From the NCBI RefSeq assembly GCF_018304945.1, contig NZ_JAGQEE010000003.1, positions 496,001-560,000 of the forward strand: a stretch of 64,000 nucleotides of DNA, in the 5' to 3' direction. Source of the DNA: Collimonas humicola. Its GTDB lineage: Bacteria; Pseudomonadota; Gammaproteobacteria; Burkholderiales; Burkholderiaceae_D. Under the pieces are notes generated by a model that saw only the letters and a program-made list of their open reading frames with translations, was not told the DNA's origin and searched no databases. Each line of letters opens with the position of its first letter. Positions within the stretch are counted from its first letter, which is position 1. Positions 3,564 through 28,625 of this stretch are shown one piece after another. Both the position numbers and the translations under genes were made by a program.

Positions 3564-5057
3564 ATGTTCAAGGAATACGCCGATTACGACGCCAGCGGCC
3601 TGGCCGCCCTGGTTGCCAGCCGCGAGGTTGCCGCCGGCGAATTGCTGGAAGCGGCGCTGGCGCGCGCGGCCGCGGTCAATCCGGCCATCAACGCCATCTG
3701 CATCCCGATGGAAGAGATCGGCCGCCAGCGCGCGCAGCAGGAACTGCGCGGACCGTTCGCCGGCGTGCCCTTCCTGATCAAGGATATCGTCCAGGACTAT
3801 GCCGGCGTAGCCGCCACCAGCGGCTGCCGCGCCCTGCGCCGGCATGTGCCGTCACAGCATGCCGCCATCGTCCAGCGCTTCCTCGACGCCGGCCTGGTCA
3901 TCTTCGGCAAGACCGCCACCCCTGAATTCGCGCTGAAGGGCGTCACCGAGCCGCTGCTGTGGGGCGCCACCCGCAATCCCTGGGATCTGCAGCGCACTCC
4001 CGGCGGTTCATCCGGCGGCGCTGCCGCAGCGGTAGCGGCCGGCATCGTGCCGGCGGCCGGGGCGGCGGATGGCGGCGGTTCGATCCGGATCCCGGCATCC
4101 TACTGCGGCCTGTTCGGACTGCGGCCCTCGCGCGGCCGGGTGCCGGCGGGACCGGGCCATGCAGAATTCTGGGACGGCGCCTCCAGCGACCATGTGCTGA
4201 CGCGCAGCGTGCGCGATTCGGCGCGCCTGCTCGATGCGATCGGCGGCGCAGACGTCGGCGCGCCCTTTGCCATCACTGCGCCGGAACGTCCTTATGCCGA
4301 TGAAATAGCACGGCCGCCGGGCAAGCTGCGGATCGGCTATTGCACGCAATCGCCGCTGGGCACGCCGGTGCACCCAGAATGCGCGCAGGCCGTCATGCAA
4401 GCCGCCGGACTGCTGGCCGGCCTGGGACATGAAGTGGAACCGGCCCAGCCGGAGATCGACGGCCACGCGCTGGCGCGTAGTTTCATCACCATGTATTTCG
4501 GCCAGACCGCCGCCGGCATCGCCCATATCAAGCAGCTCACCGGCGCCGGCAACAGCGGCTTCGAACTGGAGTCGCGCATACTGGCGCTGATCGGCCGCAC
4601 CATCAGCGCCGGCGAGTACGTGCGCGAACGCGAGCGCTGGAACGACTACGCGCGGGCGCTGGGGCGCTTCCATCAGCGCTACGATCTGTACCTGACGCCA
4701 ACCACCGCGCAGCCGCCCTGCCGCATCGGCGAACAGGATACGCCGCCTTTGCAGCGCGCTGCGGCCAAGCTGGTGCTGGCCCTTGGCGCCGGCAACCTGC
4801 TGATCAAGAGCGGCATGGTTGAGGATCTGGTCCAGACCAGCCTGCAAGCAGTGCCGTTCACCCAGCTCTCCAACCTGACCGGCACGCCCAGCATGTCGGT
4901 CCCCTTGCATTGGGCCGCCACCGCAGGCTCGGCAGAACCGCTGCCCTATGGCGTGCAGTTTGTCGCCCGCTTCGGCGATGAAGCCACCTTGCTGCGGCTG
5001 GCTGCGCAGCTGGAGCAGGCGCAGCCCTGGCAGCAGCGGCGCCCTCCGATTGCCTAG
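3564..5057 (+). CDS. Amidase signature family hydrolase
   Basis: 497 residues. The amidase signature is complete: the catalytic lysine lies in FLIKDI near residue 75, and the Gly/Ser-rich segment ([14 protein letters not shown]) with [12 protein letters not shown] supplies the two serines of the Ser-cisSer-Lys triad. Members hydrolyse small or cyclic amides; the substrate cannot be read from sequence. No GatB/GatC partner is present, so it is not the Glu-tRNA amidotransferase subunit. The ATG at 3564 has GAGGTAG about 8 nt upstream. The gene is divergent from the nas operon and its stop overlaps the convergent LysE gene by 4 nt. Confidence 0.9.
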
Positions 5058-5698
5058 ATCGCCTGCCAGCCCTCGATTCCGGTGAAGATTGCCGCGCCTA
5101 TCAGCAGCAGGCCGATCAGGCGGCCGGCAATCGCGCCGCCGCGCGGATAGGCGTCGAACCAGCCGCTGGCTTTGCTGGACAGCAGCGCCAGGCCGCCGTA
5201 CACCGCAGCCTGGGTCAGCCAGGTGATGACGCCCAGCACCAGCGCCTGGCTCCAGATCGGACCGGCGCCGATTTTCAGGAACTGCGGAAAGATCGCCAGC
5301 ATGAAGACGTAGGCTTTCGGATTCAGCAAGCTGGTCATCATGGCCTGGAAGAAGGTCATGGCCGGCGCCTTGGCGCCCGGCTGCTGTGCGGTGGAAACGA
5401 TGCGGAAGGCGTTCTCGCTGCGCAGCAGCGACCAGCCGATCCAGGCGATATAGCAGGCGCCGGCCAGCAGCACCAGGTTGAACAGCGCCGGCCACAGTTT
5501 CAGGATGACGGCAATGCCCAGCATCGCCATGACGACGTGACAGACGCCGCCGGCGATGATCCCGGCCACCGCCGCCAGGCCGGAGCGGCGGCCGCCCACC
5601 AGCGCGCTCGCCATCACGAAGGCCATGTCCAGCCCGGGCAGGACGATGACGCCGAATACGATCATGAAATATAGCCAGAGATTGACGGATTGGTTCAT
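5054..5698 (-). CDS. LysE/RhtB family amino-acid exporter
   Basis: 214 residues with about six hydrophobic segments, the usual size for LysE/RhtB exporters that export amino acids or homoserine lactone-like compounds by proton antiport in the inner membrane. The N-terminal segment (VFGVIVLPGLDMAFVMASAL) and the following glycine-rich stretch fit the family pattern (PGP-like motif, here PGL). It stands alone, convergent with the amidase. The actual substrate is unknown. Confidence 0.85.
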   Translation of the reverse strand: MNQSVNLWLYFMIVFGVIVLPGLDMAFVMASALVGGRRSGLAAVAGIIAGGVCHVVMAMLGIAVILKLWPALFNLVLLAGACYIAWIGWSLLRSENAFRIVSTAQQPGAKAPAMTFFQAMMTSLLNPKAYVFMLAIFPQFLKIGAGPIWSQALVLGVITWLTQAAVYGGLALLSSKASGWFDAYPRGGAIAGRLIGLLLIGAAIFTGIEGWQAI

Positions 5699-5794
5699 TT
5701 TGAAAGCTCCAGGCGATCGGCGGCTGAAGCCGCCTGGTCAGATTGAGTGAATTGTCTTTGGGATCGGCTGCACATGACCGGAGTCGAGTCCGCG

Positions 5795-6625
5795 CTATTG
5801 CGGCAGCCAGCGCAAGCGCGAGCGTCTGGCGGGATCAAGGATGACCGTCTCCGGCTCCGCCCTGAGCAAGCCGCCGGCGGCCAATTCCTTGGCGGCACGC
5901 TCGGCCAGCGGACTGAATTTACTTTCCAGCAGCTGATTATCCTGGGCCAGACCCAGCCACACCAGATAGGGCCCGTCAGTCCTGACCGGCAGCTGCGGGA
6001 AATTATTGCCGGCGTCCAGCGTCGCCAGCACGCCGGCCTGGCGCATGCCGGCTTCCCTGTAGCCGGCAAAGCTGGCAGCCGCCTGTTGCGCAAAGCGCTC
6101 CACGCTGCCTGGCTTGAGCGCAAATATCTGCGCAACGACGACGCCGCCCGCTCCTTCCAGCTCCCGGACCGGATCGACTGCCGGCAGAACGGTCACGCCG
6201 CTGTCCGGATCCAGGGGACGCAGCAGCAGCACATTGTCGCTGTCGACGATCAAGTCGTTCAACGTGGTCCTGTGCTCTTTCCACACCGCCCCGTAGTAGA
6301 ACGCGGCATTGGCGACAGCCCTGGCATCCATGTTCTTGAAGCCGCGCAGCCAGGTAAAGGCCTCCACATTCTTGCGTTCGAAAAACTGGCCGAAGGCGAT
6401 CGCTCCCAGCTGCTGGAAAGCTTCCGGAAAATAGCTTTCAAAGTAAGCGGCGAAATCCGCCCGGCGGCCCGGCTTGATCTGATAGCGGCGCAACTCGATG
6501 ACCTGGAAATCGTTGGGATGGCTGATGTTTTTCATGGCGATGGGCTCGGTGTTTGTCGATATTTGCGCCGATGGCGCAACGTTGATTGCCAGACCAAGGA
6601 TTAATCCGACGATAAGTCTTCGCAT
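5795..6625 (-). CDS. NIPSNAP family protein
   Basis: 276 residues, two dimeric alpha/beta-barrel (NIPSNAP-like) repeats. The first begins at about residue 40 (QVIELRRYQIKPG) and the second near residue 165 (ALKPGSVERFAQQ). The first 21 residues look like a signal peptide ending APSAQ. An internal ATG at 6535 (MKNISHPNDF) would give a cytosolic protein instead, and cannot be excluded. NIPSNAP proteins have no firmly established biochemical role. It is divergent from the WYL regulator at 6722, which is therefore its likely regulator. Confidence 0.75.
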   Translation of the reverse strand: MRRLIVGLILGLAINVAPSAQISTNTEPIAMKNISHPNDFQVIELRRYQIKPGRRADFAAYFESYFPEAFQQLGAIAFGQFFERKNVEAFTWLRGFKNMDARAVANAAFYYGAVWKEHRTTLNDLIVDSDNVLLLRPLDPDSGVTVLPAVDPVRELEGAGGVVVAQIFALKPGSVERFAQQAAASFAGYREAGMRQAGVLATLDAGNNFPQLPVRTDGPYLVWLGLAQDNQLLESKFSPLAERAAKELAAGGLLRAEPETVILDPARRSRLRWLPQ

Positions 6626-6721
6626 GCTGTTCCTCCGGCTGGATGGGTTTTTGTGGCTGAAATCGAAGATAAATGAGATTTAGGACAGAATTCGCCCTAT
6701 ATTTAAATTATCCTGTGAAAC

Positions 6722-7672
6722 ATGTACCACCCGACCACACGCGTGCTGGCAGTGCTGGAACTGCTGCAAACCCATGGCCGCATGAGCGGGGCCGAGATGG
6801 CTGCGCGCCTGGAAATCGACGGCCGCACCCTGCGCCGCTATATCGTGACGCTGGAAGAAATGGGGATTCCGATCACTACCGAGCGCGGCCGCCACGGCGG
6901 CTATGCGCTGATGGCCGGCTTCAAGCTGCCGCCCATGATGTTTACCGACGACGAGGCGCTGGCCCTGGCCATAGGCTTGCTGGCGGCGCGCAGCCTGGGG
7001 CTGGCCGAGGCGGCGCCGGCGGTGGCCAGCGCCCAGGCCAAGCTGGAACGGATCATGCCGGCCAACCTGAAACGGCGCGTCAGCGCCGTCGACGAAACGG
7101 TCAGGCTCGATCTGTCGCAAGCGACCTCGCCCGACAATAATGCCGCGCTGATTACCCTCAGCGCCGCCGCGCAAAACCGCCAGCGGGTGCACCTGCATTA
7201 CCGCAGCGCCCAGGGCGACGACAGCGAGCGCGACTTCGACGCTTACGGGCTGGCGTATCGCGGCGGCCGCTGGTATGTGGCGGGCATGTGCCATCTGCGC
7301 AAGGATGTGCGTTCGTTCCGCCTGGACCGGGTGAGGCAGGTGCAACTGCTGGCGCAGCAGTTTACGCGGCCGCCGGCGTTCGACGCCCTGGCTCATCTGT
7401 CATTTTCGGTGGCCACCATCCCGCGCGCCTTTGCCGTCGAGGTGCTGCTCAAGACCGACCTGATATCGGCGCGCGAGCATCTGTTCGACGCTATCGGCAT
7501 TTTTGAACAAACCGAGGAAGGCGTGCTGTTGCATAACCAGTCCGACGATCTCGACTGGTTTGCACGGCAGCTGGCGCGCCTGCCGTTTGCGTTTGAAATC
7601 CGTCAGCCGCCGGCGCTGCGCGACGCCGTCAGGCTCTGCGCGCAGAGATTATTGTCGCTGGTAAAAAAATAA
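6722..7672 (+). CDS. WYL-domain transcriptional regulator (YafY type)
   Basis: 316 residues. An N-terminal winged helix-turn-helix (about residues 5-60: GRMSGAEMAARLEIDGRTLRRYIVTL, interrupted here only by citation) is followed by a WYL ligand-binding domain from about residue 140 (RVHLHYRS ... GLAYRGGRWYVAGMC) and a C-terminal WCX region. WYL proteins sense small ligands and usually control the adjacent gene; here that is the divergent NIPSNAP gene, 96 bp away. A similar but shorter WYL regulator lies at 42111-42818. Confidence 0.85.
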   Translation: MYHPTTRVLAVLELLQTHGRMSGAEMAARLEIDGRTLRRYIVTLEEMGIPITTERGRHGGYALMAGFKLPPMMFTDDEALALAIGLLAARSLGLAEAAPAVASAQAKLERIMPANLKRRVSAVDETVRLDLSQATSPDNNAALITLSAAAQNRQRVHLHYRSAQGDDSERDFDAYGLAYRGGRWYVAGMCHLRKDVRSFRLDRVRQVQLLAQQFTRPPAFDALAHLSFSVATIPRAFAVEVLLKTDLISAREHLFDAIGIFEQTEEGVLLHNQSDDLDWFARQLARLPFAFEIRQPPALRDAVRLCAQRLLSLVKK

Positions 7673-18896: not shown

Positions 18897-18986
18897 TTTT
18901 CCGGCCCGGCACTTGCCTACCATGAAGAGAGAGCATGGAGAGAGACAGGCGCCATTGGCGTCGCGAAAATACGGAAGGAACCTCTG

Positions 18987-20252
18987 ATGAATGACACAAC
19001 TGCACAATCCGGCTACGCCCCGCTGGTACGGTTTCCGCGCAAGGACGGCTCGCGCACCCCTTATAAGGTCTTCAGTTCGCAGGAAGTCTACGACCTGGAA
19101 CAGGAGCGGATTTTCCGCGGCCCGGCCTGGAGCTTCCTCGCGCTGGAAGCGGAGATTCCCAACAACGGCGACTTCAAGAGCACTTTCGTGGGCGACACCC
19201 CGGTGGTGGTCACCCGCACCGAGGACGGCACGCTGGCGGCGTGGGTCAACAAGTGCGCGCACCGCGGCGCCATGGTGTGCCGCACGCCGCGCGGCAACGC
19301 CAGCTCGCACAGCTGCGCCTATCACCAGTGGAGTTTCGACAGCCGCGGCAACCTGCTGGGGGTGCCGTTCCGCCGCGGCCAGAAAGGCATGAGCGGCATG
19401 CCCAAGGATTTCGATCCGAAATGCCATGGCTTGCGCCAGCTGCGCGTGGACAGCTATCGCGGCCTGGTGTTCGCCACCTTCAGTGACACCGTGGAGCCGC
19501 TGGCCGACTATATCGGCGCCGAAATGCGGCCTTGGCTGGACCGCATTTTCCACAAACCCATCGTCTACCTGGGCTGCACCCGCCAGTATTCGAAATCGAA
19601 CTGGAAACTGTACCTGGAAAACGTGAAGGATCCCTATCACGCCAGCCTGCTGCATCTGTTCCACACCACCTTCAATATTTTCCGGGTCGGCATGAAGGCG
19701 CGTTCGCTGGCGGACAAGCGGCATGGCTTGCACAGCATCATCACCGCCACCAAGAATGAAGCCGAAACGTCCGACGCCTACAAGCAGCAGGCGATCCGCT
19801 CTTTCGACGAGGGTTTCACGCTGGAAGACGATTCCGTTCTCGGGCAGATCAGGGAATACGAGGAAATGACCACCAATCATATCCAGCCGATCTTTCCGCA
19901 GCTGGTGGTGCAGCAGATCCACAACACGCTGGTAGCGCGCCAGCTGCTGCCGAAAGGACCGAAAAATTTCGAACTGATCTTCCACTTCTTCGGCTATGCC
20001 GACGATACTCCGGAACTGCGCGCCTTGCGCATCAAGCAGGCCAACCTGGTGGGGCCGGCCGGCTATATTTCGATGGAAGACACCGAGGCCACCGAGCTGG
20101 TGCAGCGCGGCACCGTGCGCGATCCGGACGACTGCTCGGTGATGGAAATGGCGAAAGACAATCCCGAGCAGGAAGACACGCTGATCACCGAAGGCTTGAT
20201 CCGCCGGTTCTGGCTCGGCTATCAGAAACTGATGGGTTTTGCAGAAGCTTAA
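18987..20252 (+). CDS. andAc: Anthranilate 1,2-dioxygenase, oxygenase large subunit
   Basis: 421 residues, ring-hydroxylating oxygenase alpha subunit converting anthranilate to catechol with loss of CO2 and ammonia. The Rieske centre is Cys90-x-His92 and Cys110-x2-His113. Mononuclear iron ligands lie in ENVKDPYHASLLH (His218, His223) with a later aspartate. Sequence character and the catechol genes next door favour the AndAc type over benzoate dioxygenase BenA. Start at ATG 18987 with GGAAGGAA upstream; the open frame extends further but covers the regulatory region. First in a three-gene operon. Confidence 0.88.
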   Translation: MNDTTAQSGYAPLVRFPRKDGSRTPYKVFSSQEVYDLEQERIFRGPAWSFLALEAEIPNNGDFKSTFVGDTPVVVTRTEDGTLAAWVNKCAHRGAMVCRTPRGNASSHSCAYHQWSFDSRGNLLGVPFRRGQKGMSGMPKDFDPKCHGLRQLRVDSYRGLVFATFSDTVEPLADYIGAEMRPWLDRIFHKPIVYLGCTRQYSKSNWKLYLENVKDPYHASLLHLFHTTFNIFRVGMKARSLADKRHGLHSIITATKNEAETSDAYKQQAIRSFDEGFTLEDDSVLGQIREYEEMTTNHIQPIFPQLVVQQIHNTLVARQLLPKGPKNFELIFHFFGYADDTPELRALRIKQANLVGPAGYISMEDTEATELVQRGTVRDPDDCSVMEMAKDNPEQEDTLITEGLIRRFWLGYQKLMGFAEA

Positions 20253-20255
20253 GGG

Positions 20256-20738
20256 ATGACCAATATGACCGATATGACATTGTGGTTCGAGCTGCACCAG
20301 CTGCAGGAAGCGTATGTGCATGCGCTCGACAACGACCGCCTGGAAGAGTGGCCGGAATTCTTCACCGAAGACTGCCTGTACGAAATCATCCCGCGCGAAA
20401 ATGCCGATGCCGGCCTGCCGATCGGCATCATCTACTGCGACAGCAAGCGCATGCTGCGCGATCGCGTCCTGTCTTTGCGCCATGCCAACATCTACGAAGC
20501 GCACAGCTACCGCCACATGACTTCCGGCTTGATGATCAAGGCTATCGATGCCGACACCGCCGAGACCGAATCGAGCTACATAGTGATACAAACCCTGCAA
20601 GACGGGGAATCGACCGTGTACCAGGCCGGCCGCTATATCGACCGCGTGGTCAGAACCGCGGCCGGCTGGCGCTACGCCAAAAAGCGCGTGGTATACGACA
20701 CGCTGCGCGTGGCGACCTTGCTGGCCACCCCGATCTGA
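20256..20738 (+). CDS. andAd: Anthranilate 1,2-dioxygenase, small subunit
   Basis: 160 residues, beta subunit of the ring-hydroxylating oxygenase (SnoaL-like cone fold). It packs with the large subunit in an alpha3beta3 hexamer and has no cofactor. EWPEFFTEDCLYEI, SYRHMTSG and the C-terminal YAKKRVVYDTLRV match the family. The start follows the andAc stop by 3 nt, indicating translational coupling. Confidence 0.9.
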   Translation: MTNMTDMTLWFELHQLQEAYVHALDNDRLEEWPEFFTEDCLYEIIPRENADAGLPIGIIYCDSKRMLRDRVLSLRHANIYEAHSYRHMTSGLMIKAIDADTAETESSYIVIQTLQDGESTVYQAGRYIDRVVRTAAGWRYAKKRVVYDTLRVATLLATPI

Positions 20739-20745
20739 GGCGGCC

Positions 20746-21828
20746 ATGAGCGACTGGCACGATATCGGCACGGCCGACGATTTCAACGAAGGCGAGGCGC
20801 TGGCGGTGATCGCCGGCGGCCAGCCGGTGGCGGTGTTCCGCCTCGGCGAGGATTTGTTTGCGCTACGCGATTTATGCACGCACGGCAACGCGCGGTTGTC
20901 CGACGGCTACATCGAAGATGGCTGCATCGAATGCCCGCTGCACCAGGGCCTGTTCGACATCAGGAGCGGCGCGCCGCGCTGCCTGCCGGTGACCGAAGCG
21001 GTGCGCAGCTTTCCGGTGCGGGTCGTGGCGGGACGGGTGGAAGTTGAAGTGCGCGACACCAAGACACTTCCGCACGAGGCAGCCATTGAGCATAGGGACA
21101 TGGTGGTCGAGACGTTCGAACGGGCAGCCCCGGACGTAGCGATCATCCGGCTGCGCAACAGCAGCGGCGCGCCGCTGGACTATATCGCCGGCCAGTATCT
21201 CGATGTATTGCTGGCCGACGGCCAGCGCCGCAGCTACTCGATGGCGACGCCGGCCGGCGCCGACGTGCTGGAACTGCATGTACGGCATTTGCCCGGAGGC
21301 TTGTTCAGCGACCGTGTATTTGCTGGCCTGCAGGTCGGCGAGCGCTTGCAGATCGAAGGTCCGTGCGGCAGCTTCTTCCTGCGCGACGGCGGCCAGCCTG
21401 TGATCCTGCTGGCCAGCGGCACCGGCTTTGCACCGATCAAGGCCCTGGTGGAAGAAGCGATCCGCAGCGGCAGTACGCGCAGCATGTGCCTGTACTGGGG
21501 CGGCCGCAAACAGCCCGATCTGTATCTGGATGCCTTATGCCGCAACTGGGCCGGAACCCTGCCCTGGTTCCGCTACATACCGGTCTTGTCCGAGCCCGAG
21601 GCCGGCAGCGGCTGGCGCGGCCGCAGCGGCTTCGTCCACCTGGCGGTGATGCAGGACTATCCCGACCTGTCGCGGCACCAGGTATATGCCTGCGGCGCAC
21701 CGGTGGTGGTGGAGGCGGCGCGCCGCGATTTTGCCGCCGGCTGCGGCTTGCCGGCTGCACAGTTTTTTGCCGATGCCTTCCTGTCGAAAGCGGACAGCGT
21801 CGCCGCCGGACACGCCGGCAATCGATAA
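20746..21828 (+). CDS. Rieske ferredoxin-FNR reductase fusion, electron donor of the dioxygenase
   Basis: 360 residues. Residues 1-104 form a Rieske-type [2Fe-2S] ferredoxin (Cys44-x-His46, Cys63-x2-His66). Residues about 115-345 are an FNR-type reductase with the FAD motif RRSYS (161-165), NAD site GTGFAP (225-230) and C-terminal CGAP (316-319). No plant-type ferredoxin cysteines (CxxxxCxxC) are present, unlike AntC/BenC, and no glutathione-reductase-type domain, unlike AndAa. It therefore appears to replace both the ferredoxin and the reductase in one chain. The start is 7 nt past the andAd stop. Confidence 0.85.
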   Translation: MSDWHDIGTADDFNEGEALAVIAGGQPVAVFRLGEDLFALRDLCTHGNARLSDGYIEDGCIECPLHQGLFDIRSGAPRCLPVTEAVRSFPVRVVAGRVEVEVRDTKTLPHEAAIEHRDMVVETFERAAPDVAIIRLRNSSGAPLDYIAGQYLDVLLADGQRRSYSMATPAGADVLELHVRHLPGGLFSDRVFAGLQVGERLQIEGPCGSFFLRDGGQPVILLASGTGFAPIKALVEEAIRSGSTRSMCLYWGGRKQPDLYLDALCRNWAGTLPWFRYIPVLSEPEAGSGWRGRSGFVHLAVMQDYPDLSRHQVYACGAPVVVEAARRDFAAGCGLPAAQFFADAFLSKADSVAAGHAGNR

Positions 21829-22559: not shown

Positions 22560-22997
22560 ATGAACGATAGGAACATGCAGGTAACCGCCCTCGCCTCCGC
22601 GCCGGCGCGCGGCCGCGGCCGGCCGAGCGCACGCGAAGACCTGCCCTGCCCGATCCGCGATGTGCTGGACCGCATCGGCGATGCCTGGAGTGTGCTGGTG
22701 CTCACTACGCTGGAACCGGGCCCGGAGCGCTTTAATCAATTGCGGCGCCAGGTGGAAGGAATTTCGCAGCGGATGCTGACGGTGACTTTGCGTCATCTGG
22801 AGCGCGACGGCCTGGTGTCGCGCACGGTGATTCCGAGCACGCCGCCGCAGGTGGAATATGCGCTGACCGACATGGGGCGCTCGCTTTGCCTGCCGCTCAA
22901 GGTGCTGGCAGACTGGGCCGGCAGCCATCAGCCGGTGATCCGCGGCGCGCGCCGGCAATACGATAACGCCGGCGCCGCCAATTCGGCTAACGGCTGA
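22560..22997 (+). CDS. HxlR-family transcriptional regulator
   Basis: 145 residues. The HxlR winged helix is clear: CPIRDVLDRIGDAWSVLVL, then RFNQLRRQVEGISQRMLTVTLRHLERDGLVSR in parts, and VEYALTDMG. A conserved cysteine precedes PIRD, as in redox- or electrophile-sensing members. The ATG at 22560 has GAAGG upstream; a TTG at 22557 is the alternative. The gene overlaps the 3' end of jqsA by 11 nt (convergent). Confidence 0.88.
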   Translation: MNDRNMQVTALASAPARGRGRPSAREDLPCPIRDVLDRIGDAWSVLVLTTLEPGPERFNQLRRQVEGISQRMLTVTLRHLERDGLVSRTVIPSTPPQVEYALTDMGRSLCLPLKVLADWAGSHQPVIRGARRQYDNAGAANSANG

Positions 22998-24237
22998 TCG
23001 CGGCCGCAGCCATGCGGCGGCTGGAAGACCAGCCGGCCAAGTCCACTTTTTCACGAATCGCCGCACAGGCTTGCAGGATCTGCCTGATTTCCACTTCGGT
23101 CAGGCCTGAGTTGAGCGTCAGCCTGACCAGCGAACGGTTTTTAGGCGTCGCCGGAGCGCAAAACACTGCGCCGAAAATCCCCTCCGCCTCCAGCGCCTTG
23201 CGCAAGACCTGCGTCTTCGGTTCGGTTCCGGCTTCCAGCGCAATAATCTGCTCGCTACCGTCGCTGACGTTGTAACCCAATGCGCTCAAGCCATCGCGCA
23301 CCAGGCGTGCATTGCGATGCAAGGCCAGGCGGCGGTCATCCGCATGGCGGATGAAATCCAGCGCGGCGTCGAACCAGGCCAGTTCATGCCCCAGCATGCA
23401 GGAACTGAAAATCGCCGGACGCGAGGTGGACAAGAAATAGCCTTTGAATTTGCTGGAGCAGGTAATGAATCCAGCGCGCCCGCCAAACGCCTTGGCCAGC
23501 GAGGCCGTGCGAAAGTGGACCCGTTCGGACAAGCCCATCTGCATGACCAGGCCGGCTCCTTCAGGCCCGTGCGTGCCAAGCGAATGCGACTCATCTACCA
23601 CCAGGATGCTGCCGCTGTCTTCGGCGATGGCCAGCACTTCCGCCAACGGACAGACGCTGCCCGAGGTGCTGTAGACGGCGTCGACCACGATCACGCCGGC
23701 GCCGTGCTTGAGCACCTGCCGCCGCAGATGCTCGATATCGTTGTGCAGGAACGGCACCGGCCGCGCCTGCGCGGCATGCACCCCTTCCCAAAGGGATGCG
23801 TGCGCCTGCATGTCCAGGTAGACCGCAACGCCGGGCGCGGCGATGGTTTGCAGCAGGCCGACATTAGCGCTCCAGCCGGACTGCGTGATCAGGCCGTCTT
23901 CGGCTCCCATGAACGCTGCCAGCTTCTTTTCCAGGCGCGGCTGGGCGCTGCCCTCGCGCAGGAATACCGTCGACATCAGCAGGTCCGCTTCGCCGCGCAT
24001 GAGGCAGGCGACCTGTGCCTTGATCAGCTGCGCTTCCGCGGCGATGCATAAATAATCGTTGCTGGATAAGTAAATCGCGTTCGGCCCGGGCGGACTCCAA
24101 TGCAGTATGTGTTCGCCACCCCACAATTTTTCCATGCGATCTATGTAATACTCATCCAGCCGGGTCGATACGAAGGCTGGCAAGCGTTGCTCTGCAGCCA
24201 AAACCGAAGGTTCGTGGTAGCTTTCTGTTAATGGCAT
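22987..24237 (-). CDS. jqsA: Alpha-hydroxyketone autoinducer synthase (JqsA/CqsA/LqsA type)
   Basis: 416 residues, PLP-dependent alpha-oxoamine synthase family. The PLP lysine is Lys249 (TASLAKAFGGRAGF), with DESHS at 215-219 contacting the cofactor. Biotin synthesis (BioF) is an alternative on sequence alone, but the adjacent LqsS-type kinase and LqsR-type regulator, and the absence of other bio genes, favour the quorum-sensing role known from Vibrio CqsA, Legionella LqsA and Janthinobacterium JqsA. Product would be a long-chain alpha-hydroxyketone. Divergent from jqsS across 162 bp in which I found no clear operator. Confidence 0.85.
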   Translation of the reverse strand: MPLTESYHEPSVLAAEQRLPAFVSTRLDEYYIDRMEKLWGGEHILHWSPPGPNAIYLSSNDYLCIAAEAQLIKAQVACLMRGEADLLMSTVFLREGSAQPRLEKKLAAFMGAEDGLITQSGWSANVGLLQTIAAPGVAVYLDMQAHASLWEGVHAAQARPVPFLHNDIEHLRRQVLKHGAGVIVVDAVYSTSGSVCPLAEVLAIAEDSGSILVVDESHSLGTHGPEGAGLVMQMGLSERVHFRTASLAKAFGGRAGFITCSSKFKGYFLSTSRPAIFSSCMLGHELAWFDAALDFIRHADDRRLALHRNARLVRDGLSALGYNVSDGSEQIIALEAGTEPKTQVLRKALEAEGIFGAVFCAPATPKNRSLVRLTLNSGLTEVEIRQILQACAAIREKVDLAGWSSSRRMAAAAISR

Positions 24238-24399
24238 GATTTTCTCCCTATACTTTCAGATGAAATACCAAACAGAGCCGCCATGTCCCTGTCTGGAACG
24301 CGGAATCAGGTTATGCAATTGGACTTAGAACATCGGCAACTTATCGCCGTCTTGCGACAGCGTCATACCAAATCCAATCAGCCACATATCTGATACAAC

Positions 24400-25719
24400 A
24401 TGATTGAAAACATTAGCAGCTGGAAAAGCAAGCGCTGGCGCGCCTGGGAACGTGCTGCAAGCCACTGGTGGCTGAGCATCAACACCCAGTTCAACGATAT
24501 GGCCAATCGCGTGGCGATCCTTGCCTGGGTTGCCGTGATCGGCATGCCGCTGTATTACGTGATCTGGTCTTACTGGTTTCCGCAGCTGTATGAAAACCTC
24601 GGCCTGCGCCTGTTTTGCGTCGCTCTGTGCGCGCCGATTATTTTCATCCGCCATCTGCGCCAGAGAAAATGGCTGGCGGTGTATTTTTTCGTTTGCCTGA
24701 CCTACGGGCTGCCGTTTTTTTTCACCTTCATGTTTCTCATGAATGACGGTTCAGCGGTCTGGGGCCAGTCATTGCTGATCGGGCTGATTCTGCTGTTTCA
24801 CTTCGATACTACGCTCGCTTTCCTTTCCTATCTTGTCGGCACCGTGCTGGCCTATGCCGTTTATTCAATGCTACACGGCAGCATCATGCCGCTCAGCACC
24901 CAGGTGCTGGAGCAGTTGCCGATCCAGGTCTTTGCCATCTTCACGGTCTCGCTGGCCAAGGTCGGCAGAAAGGTGCTGGCCCAGGAAAAGCTGGCCGGCA
25001 TGGCGACCGCCCTGGCGACGGTATCGCACGAGTTGCGCACGCCTTTGCGCAGCATCAACGCCAATGCCCGCGGCCTGAGCCGGCTGCTGCAGGAAAACGC
25101 AGCGCCGCTGGCAGCCAGCGGGGTGCCGATAGAAAAGGCGCTGGCGCGCATCGAGTTTGAAGTGCGGCACATGAACAATGTGATCGACCTGTTCCTGCTG
25201 AGCGCTTCCACCGGCAAGGAGAATCTGGTTCCGAAGGATATCGTGTCGATGGCGGCGGCGGTCGACCTGATGATGCAGCGCTATCCTTTCGTCAATCAGG
25301 AACAGCGCGACCTGGTCGCCATCACGATCCGCTCCGATTTCCGTTTGCTGGGCCAGAGCGAGCTGTGCTCGATGGTCCTGGTCAACCTGCTGCGCAATGC
25401 GCTGACTTCGATCCAGCGCGTCGGCAAGGGGCGCATACGGATCGTGCTGGATGGCGCGCGGGCAAAGCCCAGGCTGCTGTTCATCGATACCGGCAGCGGC
25501 ATCGAAGCCGGCCGCATGTCGCAGATATTCGAACGTTTCTACGCCTATCCGGAGCACAACGGCACCGGCATCGGACTGGCTTTTTGCCGCGACGTGCTCA
25601 ATGCCTGGGGCGCCCGCATACGGGTGATTTCGCGGCCGCTGGCCTACACCGTTTTTGTGCTGGAATTTCCGCCAGTACTGCAACAAAAAGCAGCAGATGT
25701 GCGCTCTCTGTTAAATTAG
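24400..25719 (+). CDS. jqsS: Autoinducer sensor histidine kinase (JqsS/LqsS type)
   Basis: 439 residues. The first 185 residues hold about six membrane segments with short loops and no extracytoplasmic domain, as in CqsS/LqsS. The kinase follows: phospho-acceptor His210 (TVSHELRTPLRS), N box (VNLLRNALTSI), G1 (DTGSGIEAG) and G2 (GTGIGLAF). No receiver domain is fused, unlike Vibrio CqsS, so signalling should pass to the separate JqsR. It would bind the JqsA product in the inner membrane. First of three genes apparently co-transcribed. Confidence 0.85.
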   Translation: MIENISSWKSKRWRAWERAASHWWLSINTQFNDMANRVAILAWVAVIGMPLYYVIWSYWFPQLYENLGLRLFCVALCAPIIFIRHLRQRKWLAVYFFVCLTYGLPFFFTFMFLMNDGSAVWGQSLLIGLILLFHFDTTLAFLSYLVGTVLAYAVYSMLHGSIMPLSTQVLEQLPIQVFAIFTVSLAKVGRKVLAQEKLAGMATALATVSHELRTPLRSINANARGLSRLLQENAAPLAASGVPIEKALARIEFEVRHMNNVIDLFLLSASTGKENLVPKDIVSMAAAVDLMMQRYPFVNQEQRDLVAITIRSDFRLLGQSELCSMVLVNLLRNALTSIQRVGKGRIRIVLDGARAKPRLLFIDTGSGIEAGRMSQIFERFYAYPEHNGTGIGLAFCRDVLNAWGARIRVISRPLAYTVFVLEFPPVLQQKAADVRSLLN

Positions 25720-25772
25720 CAGTCTTATCTAATCAAGCGCATATGCCGTAAATGCGCCTGCAACGCGCCACT

Positions 25773-26786
25773 ATGAATATTTCATTACCTGTTTATCAAC
25801 ACCCAACGCTGACGATCCTGATCGACGACAGCCAGAGCTTCCTGGACAGCCTGGCTTTCCAGTTGCCGCCGCAAATGGCGCGCAAGGTCTTTCACGATAC
25901 CCAGGCCGCCCTCGAATGGCTGCGCGACTCCTATCGCCATGCGCCCGGCAAAAGCCAGTCGATCCGCGTCAACTATGACGAGCAGACCTATTCCTTCGAC
26001 CGCCGCACGGTGGCGGTCGATATCGACCAGATCTACCGCCAGTCGATGAACCGCCGCCGCTTCATGCTGCCGTCGGTACTGGTGATCGATTATGCAATGC
26101 CGCAGATGAACGGCCTGGCGTTCTGCCAGGCGGTGCAGGACCTGCCCTGCAAAAAGATCCTGTTTACCGGCCAGGCCGATGAAAAAATCGCCATCGAGGC
26201 GTTCAACCGGGGCCTGATCGACCGCTTCATCAAGAAAAGCGACCACGACGCCCTCGATCACCTGGAAATGGAAATCCGCGCCCTGCAGAAGGAGTTTTTC
26301 CACGCCCAGTCGCTGACGCTGAAAGACCTGCTGTCGCGTCATTCCTACACCTTCCTGTCGGATCCGGCGTTGGAGGCGCTGGTGGAACAACTTTGCAAGC
26401 GGCACGGCTTTGTCGAGTATTACCTGTTCCCTAACCCGACCGGCATCCTGTTCTTCGACATCCAGGGCAAGGCGACGCTGATGGTGGTGGAAACGGAAGC
26501 CAGCCTGATGTCGCAGCTGGAGGTGGCGCAAGACTATGGCGCGCCGCTGGAACTGCTGACCGGCTTGCGGGAAATGCGGCTGGTCCCCTTCTTTTCCGAC
26601 ACCGGCGGCATGTATACCGACGCGTTGCGCCATGATTGGATATCATATTGCCTGCCGGCACAAATTTGTTTTGGCGCGCAAGACTACTATTGGGCCTTGT
26701 TTGATTTCCCGGCGCACTATCTCCGCGAGTCGCTTTATTCATTCGCGGAATTTTTACGTGATCAATCCGCTGACGTTAAATCCTAA
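25773..26786 (+). CDS. jqsR: LqsR-type response regulator
   Basis: 337 residues. An N-terminal receiver domain has acidic Asp18-Asp19, phospho-acceptor Asp106 (VIDYAMPQMNG), Thr132 and Lys154. About 30-40 extra residues (roughly 55-95) separate the first helix from the phospho-acceptor strand, as also described for LqsR-like proteins. The C-terminal 170 residues lack any recognisable DNA-binding motif. The ATG at 25773 is preferred; the frame extends to 25752. It starts 53 nt past jqsS, and ends 14 nt before the LuxR gene. Confidence 0.82.
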   Translation: MNISLPVYQHPTLTILIDDSQSFLDSLAFQLPPQMARKVFHDTQAALEWLRDSYRHAPGKSQSIRVNYDEQTYSFDRRTVAVDIDQIYRQSMNRRRFMLPSVLVIDYAMPQMNGLAFCQAVQDLPCKKILFTGQADEKIAIEAFNRGLIDRFIKKSDHDALDHLEMEIRALQKEFFHAQSLTLKDLLSRHSYTFLSDPALEALVEQLCKRHGFVEYYLFPNPTGILFFDIQGKATLMVVETEASLMSQLEVAQDYGAPLELLTGLREMRLVPFFSDTGGMYTDALRHDWISYCLPAQICFGAQDYYWALFDFPAHYLRESLYSFAEFLRDQSADVKS

Positions 26787-26800
26787 CCGAAGACAAATCC

Positions 26801-27538
26801 ATGCTGCGAAGCGAAACCGCTCCTCGATTATCCGCCCCCGATCTGCTGCTGATCGCGCAAGCTCCTGACTGGGATCAGCTGCGGACGCGCAGCCAGCGCC
26901 TGCTGGCGCAGGTCGGCATCTGCGACTTCATGCTGAAGATGGATGTCACCGGCGCCAACGGCGCCTCGCAGGTGCAAATGTTCGGCACCCTGCCCGGCGC
27001 CACCCTGCAGCTGTTCACCCAGCCCACCGACGACAAGACCGATCCGGTCCAGCAGCACCTGGCGCACTCCTGCCTGCCGCTCAACTGGCAGGTCGAGCAG
27101 CTGTGCCTGCTGCATGGCGGCCAGATCTATCCGCTCTTGAAAGCCATGGGCATCACCCAAGGCATAAGCCTGGCGCTGCATACCAAGCAGTCGGCCAACC
27201 GCCTCGATTTTTACAGCAACGCGGCGCCGTCGGCAGCGCTGCCGGCTGGCAGCCAGGCCGACACTCTGCTGCTCGGCCTGTATCTGCAGCAAGCCGCGGA
27301 AACGCTATGGCGCAAATCCACGCCGAACCAGGAATCGCTGCTGTCGGCGCGTGAACTGGAATGCCTGCGCTGGAGCGCCGACGGCAAGACCAGCAGCGAG
27401 ATCGGCCTGATCCTGGGCATTTCCCAGCGCACCGTGTATTTCCATATGAAGAACGTCGCAATGAAGCTGGGCGTCTACAGCACCCGCCACGCCATCAGCC
27501 GCGCGGTCATGATGGGCATCATCAAACCCAATAATTGA
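26801..27538 (+). CDS. LuxR-family solo with autoinducer-binding domain
   Basis: 245 residues: an autoinducer-binding domain (about 20-165) and a LuxR helix-turn-helix (about 180-240: LSARELECLRW, GKTSSEIGLILGISQRTVYFH). Taking Asp81-Pro82 as the TraR Asp70-Pro71 pair, Trp96 matches Trp85 and Gly121 lies near Gly113. The positions of TraR Trp57 and Tyr61 are Thr68 and Phe72. Those two residues usually line the AHL pocket, so the ligand may not be an AHL. No luxI is in the window. It is apparently the last gene of jqsS-jqsR-luxR. Confidence 0.85.
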   Translation: MLRSETAPRLSAPDLLLIAQAPDWDQLRTRSQRLLAQVGICDFMLKMDVTGANGASQVQMFGTLPGATLQLFTQPTDDKTDPVQQHLAHSCLPLNWQVEQLCLLHGGQIYPLLKAMGITQGISLALHTKQSANRLDFYSNAAPSAALPAGSQADTLLLGLYLQQAAETLWRKSTPNQESLLSARELECLRWSADGKTSSEIGLILGISQRTVYFHMKNVAMKLGVYSTRHAISRAVMMGIIKPNN

Positions 27539-27635
27539 TTTTCAACCAGCAAGCGCGTACCGGCATTCCGCGTTGATGGCCTGGCCTTGGCGCAGCTGGT
27601 GCCGATCCTGGTGATCGCCGGCTTGCGCTTGCAGC

Positions 27636-28625
27636 TCAGGGCTGCTCGAAGAAATGTTTTTCGGCCAGCGCGCTGAGATTGCCGCCCAGCTGCGCGTAGC
27701 GGAATGGCGCCTGCTCCATCAATGCCTGCGACGGCGCCGTCAGTTCCGGCGCGGTTTCGCGATAGAACACGATCCAGCCCAGGATTCCGCCTTTCGGTAT
27801 TTCTTGTGCGGCGCCGGTTTTCTGCACGAACCAGGCCGGATCGGCAATGCCGTCCAACACCAGTTGCGCCAGCTTTTTCAGGCGGCTGTGGCGGCGCTGG
27901 TACCAGTCGTCATGATTCATGCGCGACAGCTCAGCCATCATGACCAGCGGCGCCAGCGCATAGTTGTGATAAGCCAGCGCGCGGCCTGCGCGATTGAGCT
28001 CTAGCGGCAGGCTGCCGTCGTCGCCGATGTCGTTCAGCGCGCTGTCGTAGATCTTGCTGGCGGCGTCGATATAGCGCGCATCGCCGGTAGCCACGCCGGT
28101 CGCCATCACCGCCAGGCCGACCCAGTAATAGTGATTATTGCGCGGCCGCTTGGCGTCGCCGGCAAACGCCAGCGCGGCGTCCGCCAGCCGCGGCAGCCAG
28201 CTCTCGATATGCAGACGTTGCGCCGGCTCGGCTAGCGGCCGCAATTTGATATACGCAAGCGCCACGCCGGCCAGCGTCCATTTGCGCTCGTACTGCGCCT
28301 GGCTGCTGCCGACCTTGCCCAGCATCGCGTCATCCACCGCCCAGCGGTCCAGCCAGCGCAAGGCGCATGCGGCTGCCGCGGTATCGCCGCTGGCGATGTA
28401 GCGGTCGGCATTGGCGCTGACTGTCGCCAGGTAGTCGCTGAACGGCTTGACTGCGGCTTCGTTGCGGGCTTTCAGCACCGGATCGACGACGGAGTAATGC
28501 GCATCCGAGTAATAGCCGTTGGCCTCGATATCGCGCAGGCCCGCGGGCGCGTCGGCACAGGCGGCGAAGGCGCTGCTGCCGCACAGGCAAAGCGGAAGGA
28601 TAAGCAAGAGTAATCGACGCGGCAT
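27636..28625 (-). CDS. Secreted alginate lyase-like protein (PL5/AlgL family)
   Basis: 329 residues with a signal peptide (about 1-21, ending SSAFA). The PL5 signature NNHYYW is at 163-168, within an alpha/alpha barrel, and supplies the catalytic Asn and His; RAGRALAYHNYALAPLVMMA supplies the Arg/Tyr region in two parts. These enzymes cleave mannuronate linkages in alginate in the periplasm or outside the cell. No other alginate genes are nearby, so a degradative or biofilm-dispersal role is more likely than biosynthetic quality control. Convergent with the LuxR solo gene. Confidence 0.82.
   Translation of the reverse strand: MPRRLLLLILPLCLCGSSAFAACADAPAGLRDIEANGYYSDAHYSVVDPVLKARNEAAVKPFSDYLATVSANADRYIASGDTAAAACALRWLDRWAVDDAMLGKVGSSQAQYERKWTLAGVALAYIKLRPLAEPAQRLHIESWLPRLADAALAFAGDAKRPRNNHYYWVGLAVMATGVATGDARYIDAASKIYDSALNDIGDDGSLPLELNRAGRALAYHNYALAPLVMMAELSRMNHDDWYQRRHSRLKKLAQLVLDGIADPAWFVQKTGAAQEIPKGGILGWIVFYRETAPELTAPSQALMEQAPFRYAQLGGNLSALAEKHFFEQP

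Follow-up and report, generated by a model that had tools for sequence, protein, structure and literature searches.

The open reading frame at 26801..27538 (+ strand) encodes a LuxR-type regulator of 245 amino acids and probably comes third in a jqsS–jqsR–luxR transcription unit. As judged from its sequence and surroundings the regulator may be the DNA-binding partner of the response regulator JqsR, with a ligand pocket that is either devoted to something other than an acyl-homoserine lactone (AHL) or closed. We give this reading a probability of about 0.45. The protein belongs to a clade of LuxR solos with a distinct pocket, here attached to an alpha-hydroxyketone system.

The LuxR-type protein

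The window (the whole stretch of DNA analysed, 64,000 nucleotides) comes from a genome of 5.62 Mb (G000, genus g1). The protein comprises an N-terminal autoinducer-binding-like domain (approximately residues 12–172) and a C-terminal GerE HTH domain (approximately residues 178–242). Both exceed their Pfam cut-offs, GerE with E = 5.8e-17 and Autoind_bind with E = 2.4e-6 and 27.6 bits, just over the cut-off of 23; together with the two-domain fold these place the protein in the LuxR family. In a structure search the nearest folds to the model were those of the AHL receptors QscR and LasR, and the RhlR–PqsE complexes 8dq0 and 7r3j were also among the matches. Purifying selection acts on both domains, with dN/dS of 0.07 in the DNA-binding domain and 0.21 in the ligand-binding domain.

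No gene for a LuxI-type synthase adjoins luxR. The genome contains a single Autoind_synth match (at E up to 0.01), which lies on contig C11 beside a LuxR of its own, and the description of the protein as a LuxR solo in the earlier note is thus borne out. This LuxR and a second one of the same genome, both canonical, retain W, Y, D, P and W at the motif positions, and serve as an internal control for the pocket analysis.

The ligand-binding pocket

The pocket stretch runs from Leu64 to Gly121 (26990..27163, + strand), as delimited by alignment to LasR and within the clade. HMMER aligns LPGATLQLF...DP...W...G of LuxR with YPAAWREHY...DP...W...G of LasR without gaps over residues 54–130. In this register residues 56, 60 and 64 of LasR (Tyr, Trp and Tyr) correspond to Leu64, Thr68 and Phe72, and residues 73, 74, 88 and 113 (Asp, Pro, Trp and Gly) to Asp81, Pro82, Trp96 and Gly121, the LasR numbers being counted from the HMMER alignment. 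A profile–profile alignment (hhalign) gives the same register. Both methods confirm the six residues T68-F72-D81-P82-W96-G121 that had been read by spacing alone; the WYDPWG motif of AHL receptors thus begins here with Thr and Phe in place of Trp and Tyr. The pocket is read against the roles of TraR Tyr53, Trp57 and Asp70.

The changes extend beyond the six motif positions, to Leu64 and to the strand formed by residues 134–138. The latter carries the clade signature R134-L-D136-F-Y138 (27200..27214, + strand; alignments A1 and A2). In the HMMER and hhalign alignments the L-D-F of the clade is superimposed on the canonical L-S-F, so that D136 corresponds to LasR 129 (Ser) and R134 to LasR 127 (Ala); MAFFT places the strand one residue off, and the HMMER and hhalign register was adopted. 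LasR 127 and 129 are presumably ligand-facing, and an engineered LasR A127W is present in the PDB (title of 6mwz). R134, D136, F137 and Y138 are invariant in all 16 rows of A1; R134, D136 and Y138 are found in 15/15 clade rows of A2, one of which has Ile at 137. Neither Arg nor Asp occurs at these columns in any of the 21 non-clade rows of A2, in either register. LuxR thus differs from QscR, LasR and SdiA in having Leu, Thr and Phe in place of their Tyr, Trp and Tyr, in the Arg134 and Asp136 of the pocket strand, and in its lack of a luxI partner.

Conservation of the pocket and comparison with PluR and PauR

The pocket was compared across 28 clade rows, corresponding to 25 distinct sequences, some of which represent one species under two names. 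Position 64 is Leu in 26 and Met in two, and position 72 is Phe in 26 and Leu in two, with Tyr in none. Asp81, Trp96 and Gly121 are each present in all 28, and Pro82 in 25. Position 68 is variable (V 8, I 7, T 4, M 4, L 3, W 1, F 1), and Thr there is limited to four of the 13 Collimonas orthologues. On these alignments the shared Leu/Met64, Phe/Leu72, Asp81, Trp96 and R-x-D-F/I-Y (134–138) set the clade apart from both the AHL receptors and PluR. The 15 clade rows in a FastTree phylogeny of 36 sequences are monophyletic with support of 0.994; a sister relationship of the LuxR of G051 to that of Collimonas is unsupported (0.018).

Five rows were left out of the 42-row pocket alignment (G042, Tahibacter, PBB2, Rhizobacter and the RhlR-like protein of the genome itself); three of these (L039, L040 and L043) were redone. 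The proteins of G042, G049 and G056 pass the 1e-30 threshold but have canonical W-Y pockets, and were excluded from the clade. Collimonas sp. OK242 has a second LuxR copy (L031, 3781–4548, + strand), which is 67% identical, is located away from jqs and has Trp at position 68.

The earlier note had taken the Thr at the first motif position to recall PluR and PauR. According to the excerpts of PMC4414361 their motifs are TYDQCS and TYDQYI, i.e. TYDQ(C/Y)(S/I), where LuxR has T-F-D-P-W-G. The resemblance is thin because Thr (in the Collimonas lineage only) and Asp are held in common, but not Tyr or Gln; the Tyr missing from LuxR is present in PluR and PauR, and the Pro, Trp and Gly that LuxR retains are absent from them. 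The same excerpts report that pyrone sensing by PluR is unchanged in T62W and T62A and impaired in Y66A, D75A and Q76P (PMC4414361). Thr68 was rejected as a PluR-like determinant, given that the site is variable and that T62W is without effect in PluR. With the Tyr needed by both proteins replaced by Phe, and Thr68 present in only 4/13 Collimonas, the analogy is weak.

A threonine at this position can matter, since PauR T62A abolishes (dialkyl)resorcinol sensing in the excerpted results (PMC4414361), and this loss of sensing speaks for the Thr argument.

The jqs gene cluster

The local gene order is jqsA on the − strand, followed by jqsS, jqsR and luxR on the + strand. jqsA (22987..24237), divergent from jqsS, encodes an alpha-hydroxyketone autoinducer synthase. 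It scores 565.7 bits with NCBIfam NF005526, for which the cut-off is 428, and the PDB entries that it matches best carry the label CAI-1 autoinducer synthase (E approximately 1e-107), in agreement with the earlier note's placing of such a synthase next door. jqsS (24400..25719) encodes a histidine kinase with HisKA and HATPase_c domains. In Pseudoduganella ginsengisoli, as in the named Collimonas loci, its orthologue adjoins jqsR. jqsR (25752..26786) encodes an LqsR-type response regulator with a receiver domain (Pfam). Its true start may be at 25773, because several orthologues align only from residue 6–8 onwards. An alpha-hydroxyketone synthase, a histidine kinase and an LqsR-type regulator are therefore present in one cluster. 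The start codon of luxR lies 14 bp after the stop codon of jqsR on the same strand, and the three + strand genes would form a single transcription unit with luxR as its third gene.

JqsR matches PDB 6sy9 (E = 5.3e-49), which is labelled only 'Response regulator' and which we take to be Legionella LqsR. The phospho-acceptor Asp is present in all rows shown of the JqsR alignment. The receiver is the only domain found in Pfam, and all the NCBIfam matches fall within it; excerpts of PMC3376566 describe the C-terminal part of LqsR as having no homology to known output domains. An AlphaFold model of JqsR built from nine rows had a pLDDT of 51, too low for the output domain to be assessed.

Gene order of jqsR and luxR in other genomes

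The survey took in 392 genomes of the family, a sample of a larger group. JqsR was matched (E up to 1e-20) in 138 of them, and the regions downstream of 90 of the listed jqsR loci (13 Collimonas and 77 others) were examined. A six-frame scan with a profile of the LuxR DNA-binding domain detected a GerE-type HTH behind jqsR in 16 of the 90, comprising 13/13 Collimonas loci together with G418, G051 and G409. It is the luxR of the clade in 15 of these, and another type of regulator in G409. In 74 of the 77 non-Collimonas loci there is no GerE-type HTH in any frame over the 1.5–2.7 kb downstream of jqsR (two being shortened by contig ends), so that a neighbour of this kind is not a general requirement of JqsR. 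At 2/77 non-Collimonas loci against 13/13 in Collimonas, the clade LuxR is not a regular component of alpha-hydroxyketone systems. The first ORF picked was at least 800 aa long in 46 of a subset of 60 jqsR loci, mostly on the opposite strand, and one of these ORFs, in L152, resembles by eye an FtsX-type permease.

A search of 74 genomes of the genus of G418 added two further linked genomes, G454 and G463 (outside the 77), the position in G454 agreeing with that in the P. ginsengisoli record; its six other matches were unlinked and already counted. The total is 17 of 26 clade copies directly behind jqsR, in 17 genomes found. The remaining nine do not adjoin jqsR, and for one of them (G070) the whole genome gave no match to JqsR. 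Outside Collimonas the jqsR–luxR order is found in three Pseudoduganella-group genomes (G418, G454 and G463), where LuxR is 35–36% identical, and in an Oxalobacteraceae MAG (G051). In a tree of JqsR the linked clusters group together with support of 0.82, but the unlinked G281 falls inside the group. The two genomes of genus g1 without a JqsR match, G001 (1.7 Mb) and G004 (86% complete), are also without luxR and JqsA.

The MAG G051 is 97% complete and has the jqsR–luxR pair, whereas its genome yielded no match at the level of JqsA or JqsS; the pair may be a relic or a re-used half of the system. It is located on the reverse complement of L219 at approximately 4199–6840, and a transposase-like gene precedes it.

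In G409 a receiver-plus-GerE response regulator that is unrelated to the clade LuxR (L203, 392–1177, + strand) is situated 30 nt behind jqsR on the same strand. A different DNA-binding regulator here occupies the place of luxR, so that genes for DNA-binding proteins have apparently come to lie behind jqsR more than once. Although a single case, G409 is in keeping with JqsR acting together with a DNA-binding neighbour.

G220 and G444 (in which L188 and L194 hold the end of jqsR) have both jqsS and jqsR, with no JqsA-level synthase found in either genome, and are possible receivers of foreign alpha-hydroxyketones.

Proposed role of LuxR

On this distribution the firmer link of luxR is with jqsR, rather than with the product of JqsA. 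JqsA would make an alpha-hydroxyketone that is received by JqsS, whereupon the phosphorylation of JqsR would change. As JqsR is without a recognised DNA-binding domain, gene control would pass through the co-made LuxR, on which JqsR could act either by direct contact or by way of the amount of LuxR. The more specific form of this scheme, in which LuxR is a dedicated DNA-binding arm of JqsR and its activity is set by contact with phospho-JqsR rather than by an AHL, we put forward only tentatively. Relative to TraR, Tyr53 has become Leu, Tyr61 has become Phe, and Trp57 has given way to a residue that varies and is mostly aliphatic, while an Arg and an Asp are fixed on the pocket strand. A pocket rebuilt in this manner would not be expected to read AHLs in the usual way, and would either hold another molecule or be closed. 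Since Asp81, Trp96 and Gly121 are retained, a small-molecule ligand is still conceivable.

Such a ligand might be unrelated to the cluster. LuxR could sense some other small molecule, of fungal, plant or endogenous origin, its place behind jqsR being mere regulatory convenience. The purifying selection on the ligand-binding domain and the fixed polar residues are consistent with this, as is the presence of some clade members alone, away from jqs. We think it unlikely, given that the jqsR–luxR order recurs in divergent lineages and persists in G051 without jqsA and jqsS. Rather less probable is a LuxR that is free of ligand, with side chains of the protein itself (Arg134 and Asp81 or Asp136) occupying the pocket, and active whenever it is made; the fixed Arg and Asp of the pocket strand and the variability of position 68 are what would be expected of it.

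The earlier note had proposed a non-AHL signal, possibly the JqsA product itself. LuxR would then bind the alpha-hydroxyketone within the cell as a second, cytoplasmic receptor of the Jqs system. An alpha-hydroxyketone synthase in the conserved neighbourhood of Collimonas and P. ginsengisoli would agree with this, as would a pocket that has lost the aromatic contacts of AHL receptors and retained Asp81. A JqsA-level match is however absent in eight of the ten non-Collimonas genomes with the LuxR clade that were tested, including G051 with its jqsR–luxR pair; it is present in G418 and G272, and P. ginsengisoli also has JqsA. The other eight contain only relatives that are 24–29% identical, presumably BioF/Kbl-type enzymes. 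Because they are found in genomes without a JqsA-level match, the clade pocket and the jqsR–luxR pair are independent of JqsA. In addition the invariant Arg134, at the position of LasR Ala127, would be expected to accommodate a long alkyl tail badly. We consider this ligand decidedly improbable and weakly supported, weakened as it is by the JqsA-free genomes; it could still apply to Collimonas itself. Of the original proposal, a non-AHL input is plausible, inasmuch as the pocket departs from those of AHL receptors, but the analogy with PluR and PauR and the JqsA product as ligand are not supported.

That LuxR is still an AHL receptor, of relaxed specificity for the product of the genome's own LuxI or for foreign AHLs, is very unlikely: Asp-Pro-Trp-Gly is retained, the nearest folds are QscR and LasR and there is a luxI elsewhere in the genome, but three aromatic residues are replaced by Leu, Thr and Phe, Arg and Asp are on the pocket strand, and the two canonical LuxR proteins, with W, Y, D, P and W all in place, look to have filled the AHL role.

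Relation to known systems

To our knowledge, no DNA-binding output has been recognised in LqsR-type response regulators. A luxR directly behind jqsR in several lineages, in one of them without a detectable synthase or kinase, is a concrete and easily tested candidate for the means by which such regulators act on genes. If LuxR and JqsR do act together, two families of quorum-sensing systems that are usually treated apart would be joined. RhlR and PqsE offer a parallel, as a LuxR-type protein that, by analogy, may depend on a partner protein. They differ from the present case in that the partner here would be the response regulator JqsR, which we take not to be a homologue of PqsE, and whose interaction with LuxR is only predicted.

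As in the Janthinobacterium HH01 cluster outlined in excerpts of PMC3566124 and PMC5080296, jqsA adjoins jqsS, which is followed by jqsR. In the passages available from PMC3566124, PMC5080296 and PMC12618000 the Jqs system consists of three genes, whereas here a fourth, luxR, follows jqsR. Such a LuxR in the jqs cluster is not mentioned in the excerpts of PMC5080296, PMC3566124, PMC13419125, PMC4690342, PMC11288634, PMC4414361, PMC10134790, PMC5289986, PMC3376566 and PMC12618000. The quorum-sensing regulon of Collimonas is the subject of a 2022 paper in FEMS Microbiol Ecol, as cited in the excerpt of PMC11288634.

The jqsA–jqsS intergenic region and flanking genes

Excerpts of PMC5080296 give the JAI-1 motif as TTGA-N6/7-TCAA. 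It is absent from the 64-kb window at both spacings, for which 0.50 and 0.44 occurrences are expected. The lux-box-like pattern CTG-N10-CAG is found 29 times in the window against 22.9 expected, a number reached in 14 of 100 shuffles, and so gives no signal. A promoter and terminator scan of 24200–27750 returned two and five sites compared with 1.3 and 3.0 in shuffles, and was not used as evidence.

The region between jqsA and jqsS contains a dyad, CCAAACAG-N13-CTGTCTGG (24268..24296, no strand assigned), 30 nt from the start codon of jqsA, which is possibly an operator or a leader hairpin. It is present in 13/13 Collimonas, with a spacer of 13 or 16 and a right half of CTGTCTGG, CTGCCTGG or CCGTCTGG, and was not found in two Pseudoduganella-type clusters. 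Elsewhere in the genome of the window no site fits the spacer-13 pattern with 0–1 mismatch and six fit it with two mismatches, the reversed control pattern giving one.

Genes for an aromatic-ring dioxygenase apparently lie near jqsA, at approximately 18960–21828. A ring-hydroxylating beta subunit and a Rieske/FAD reductase are identified by Pfam, and an alpha subunit by reading of the sequence. In the Collimonas silvisoli locus (L026) a gene for the dioxygenase beta subunit is likewise found near jqsA.
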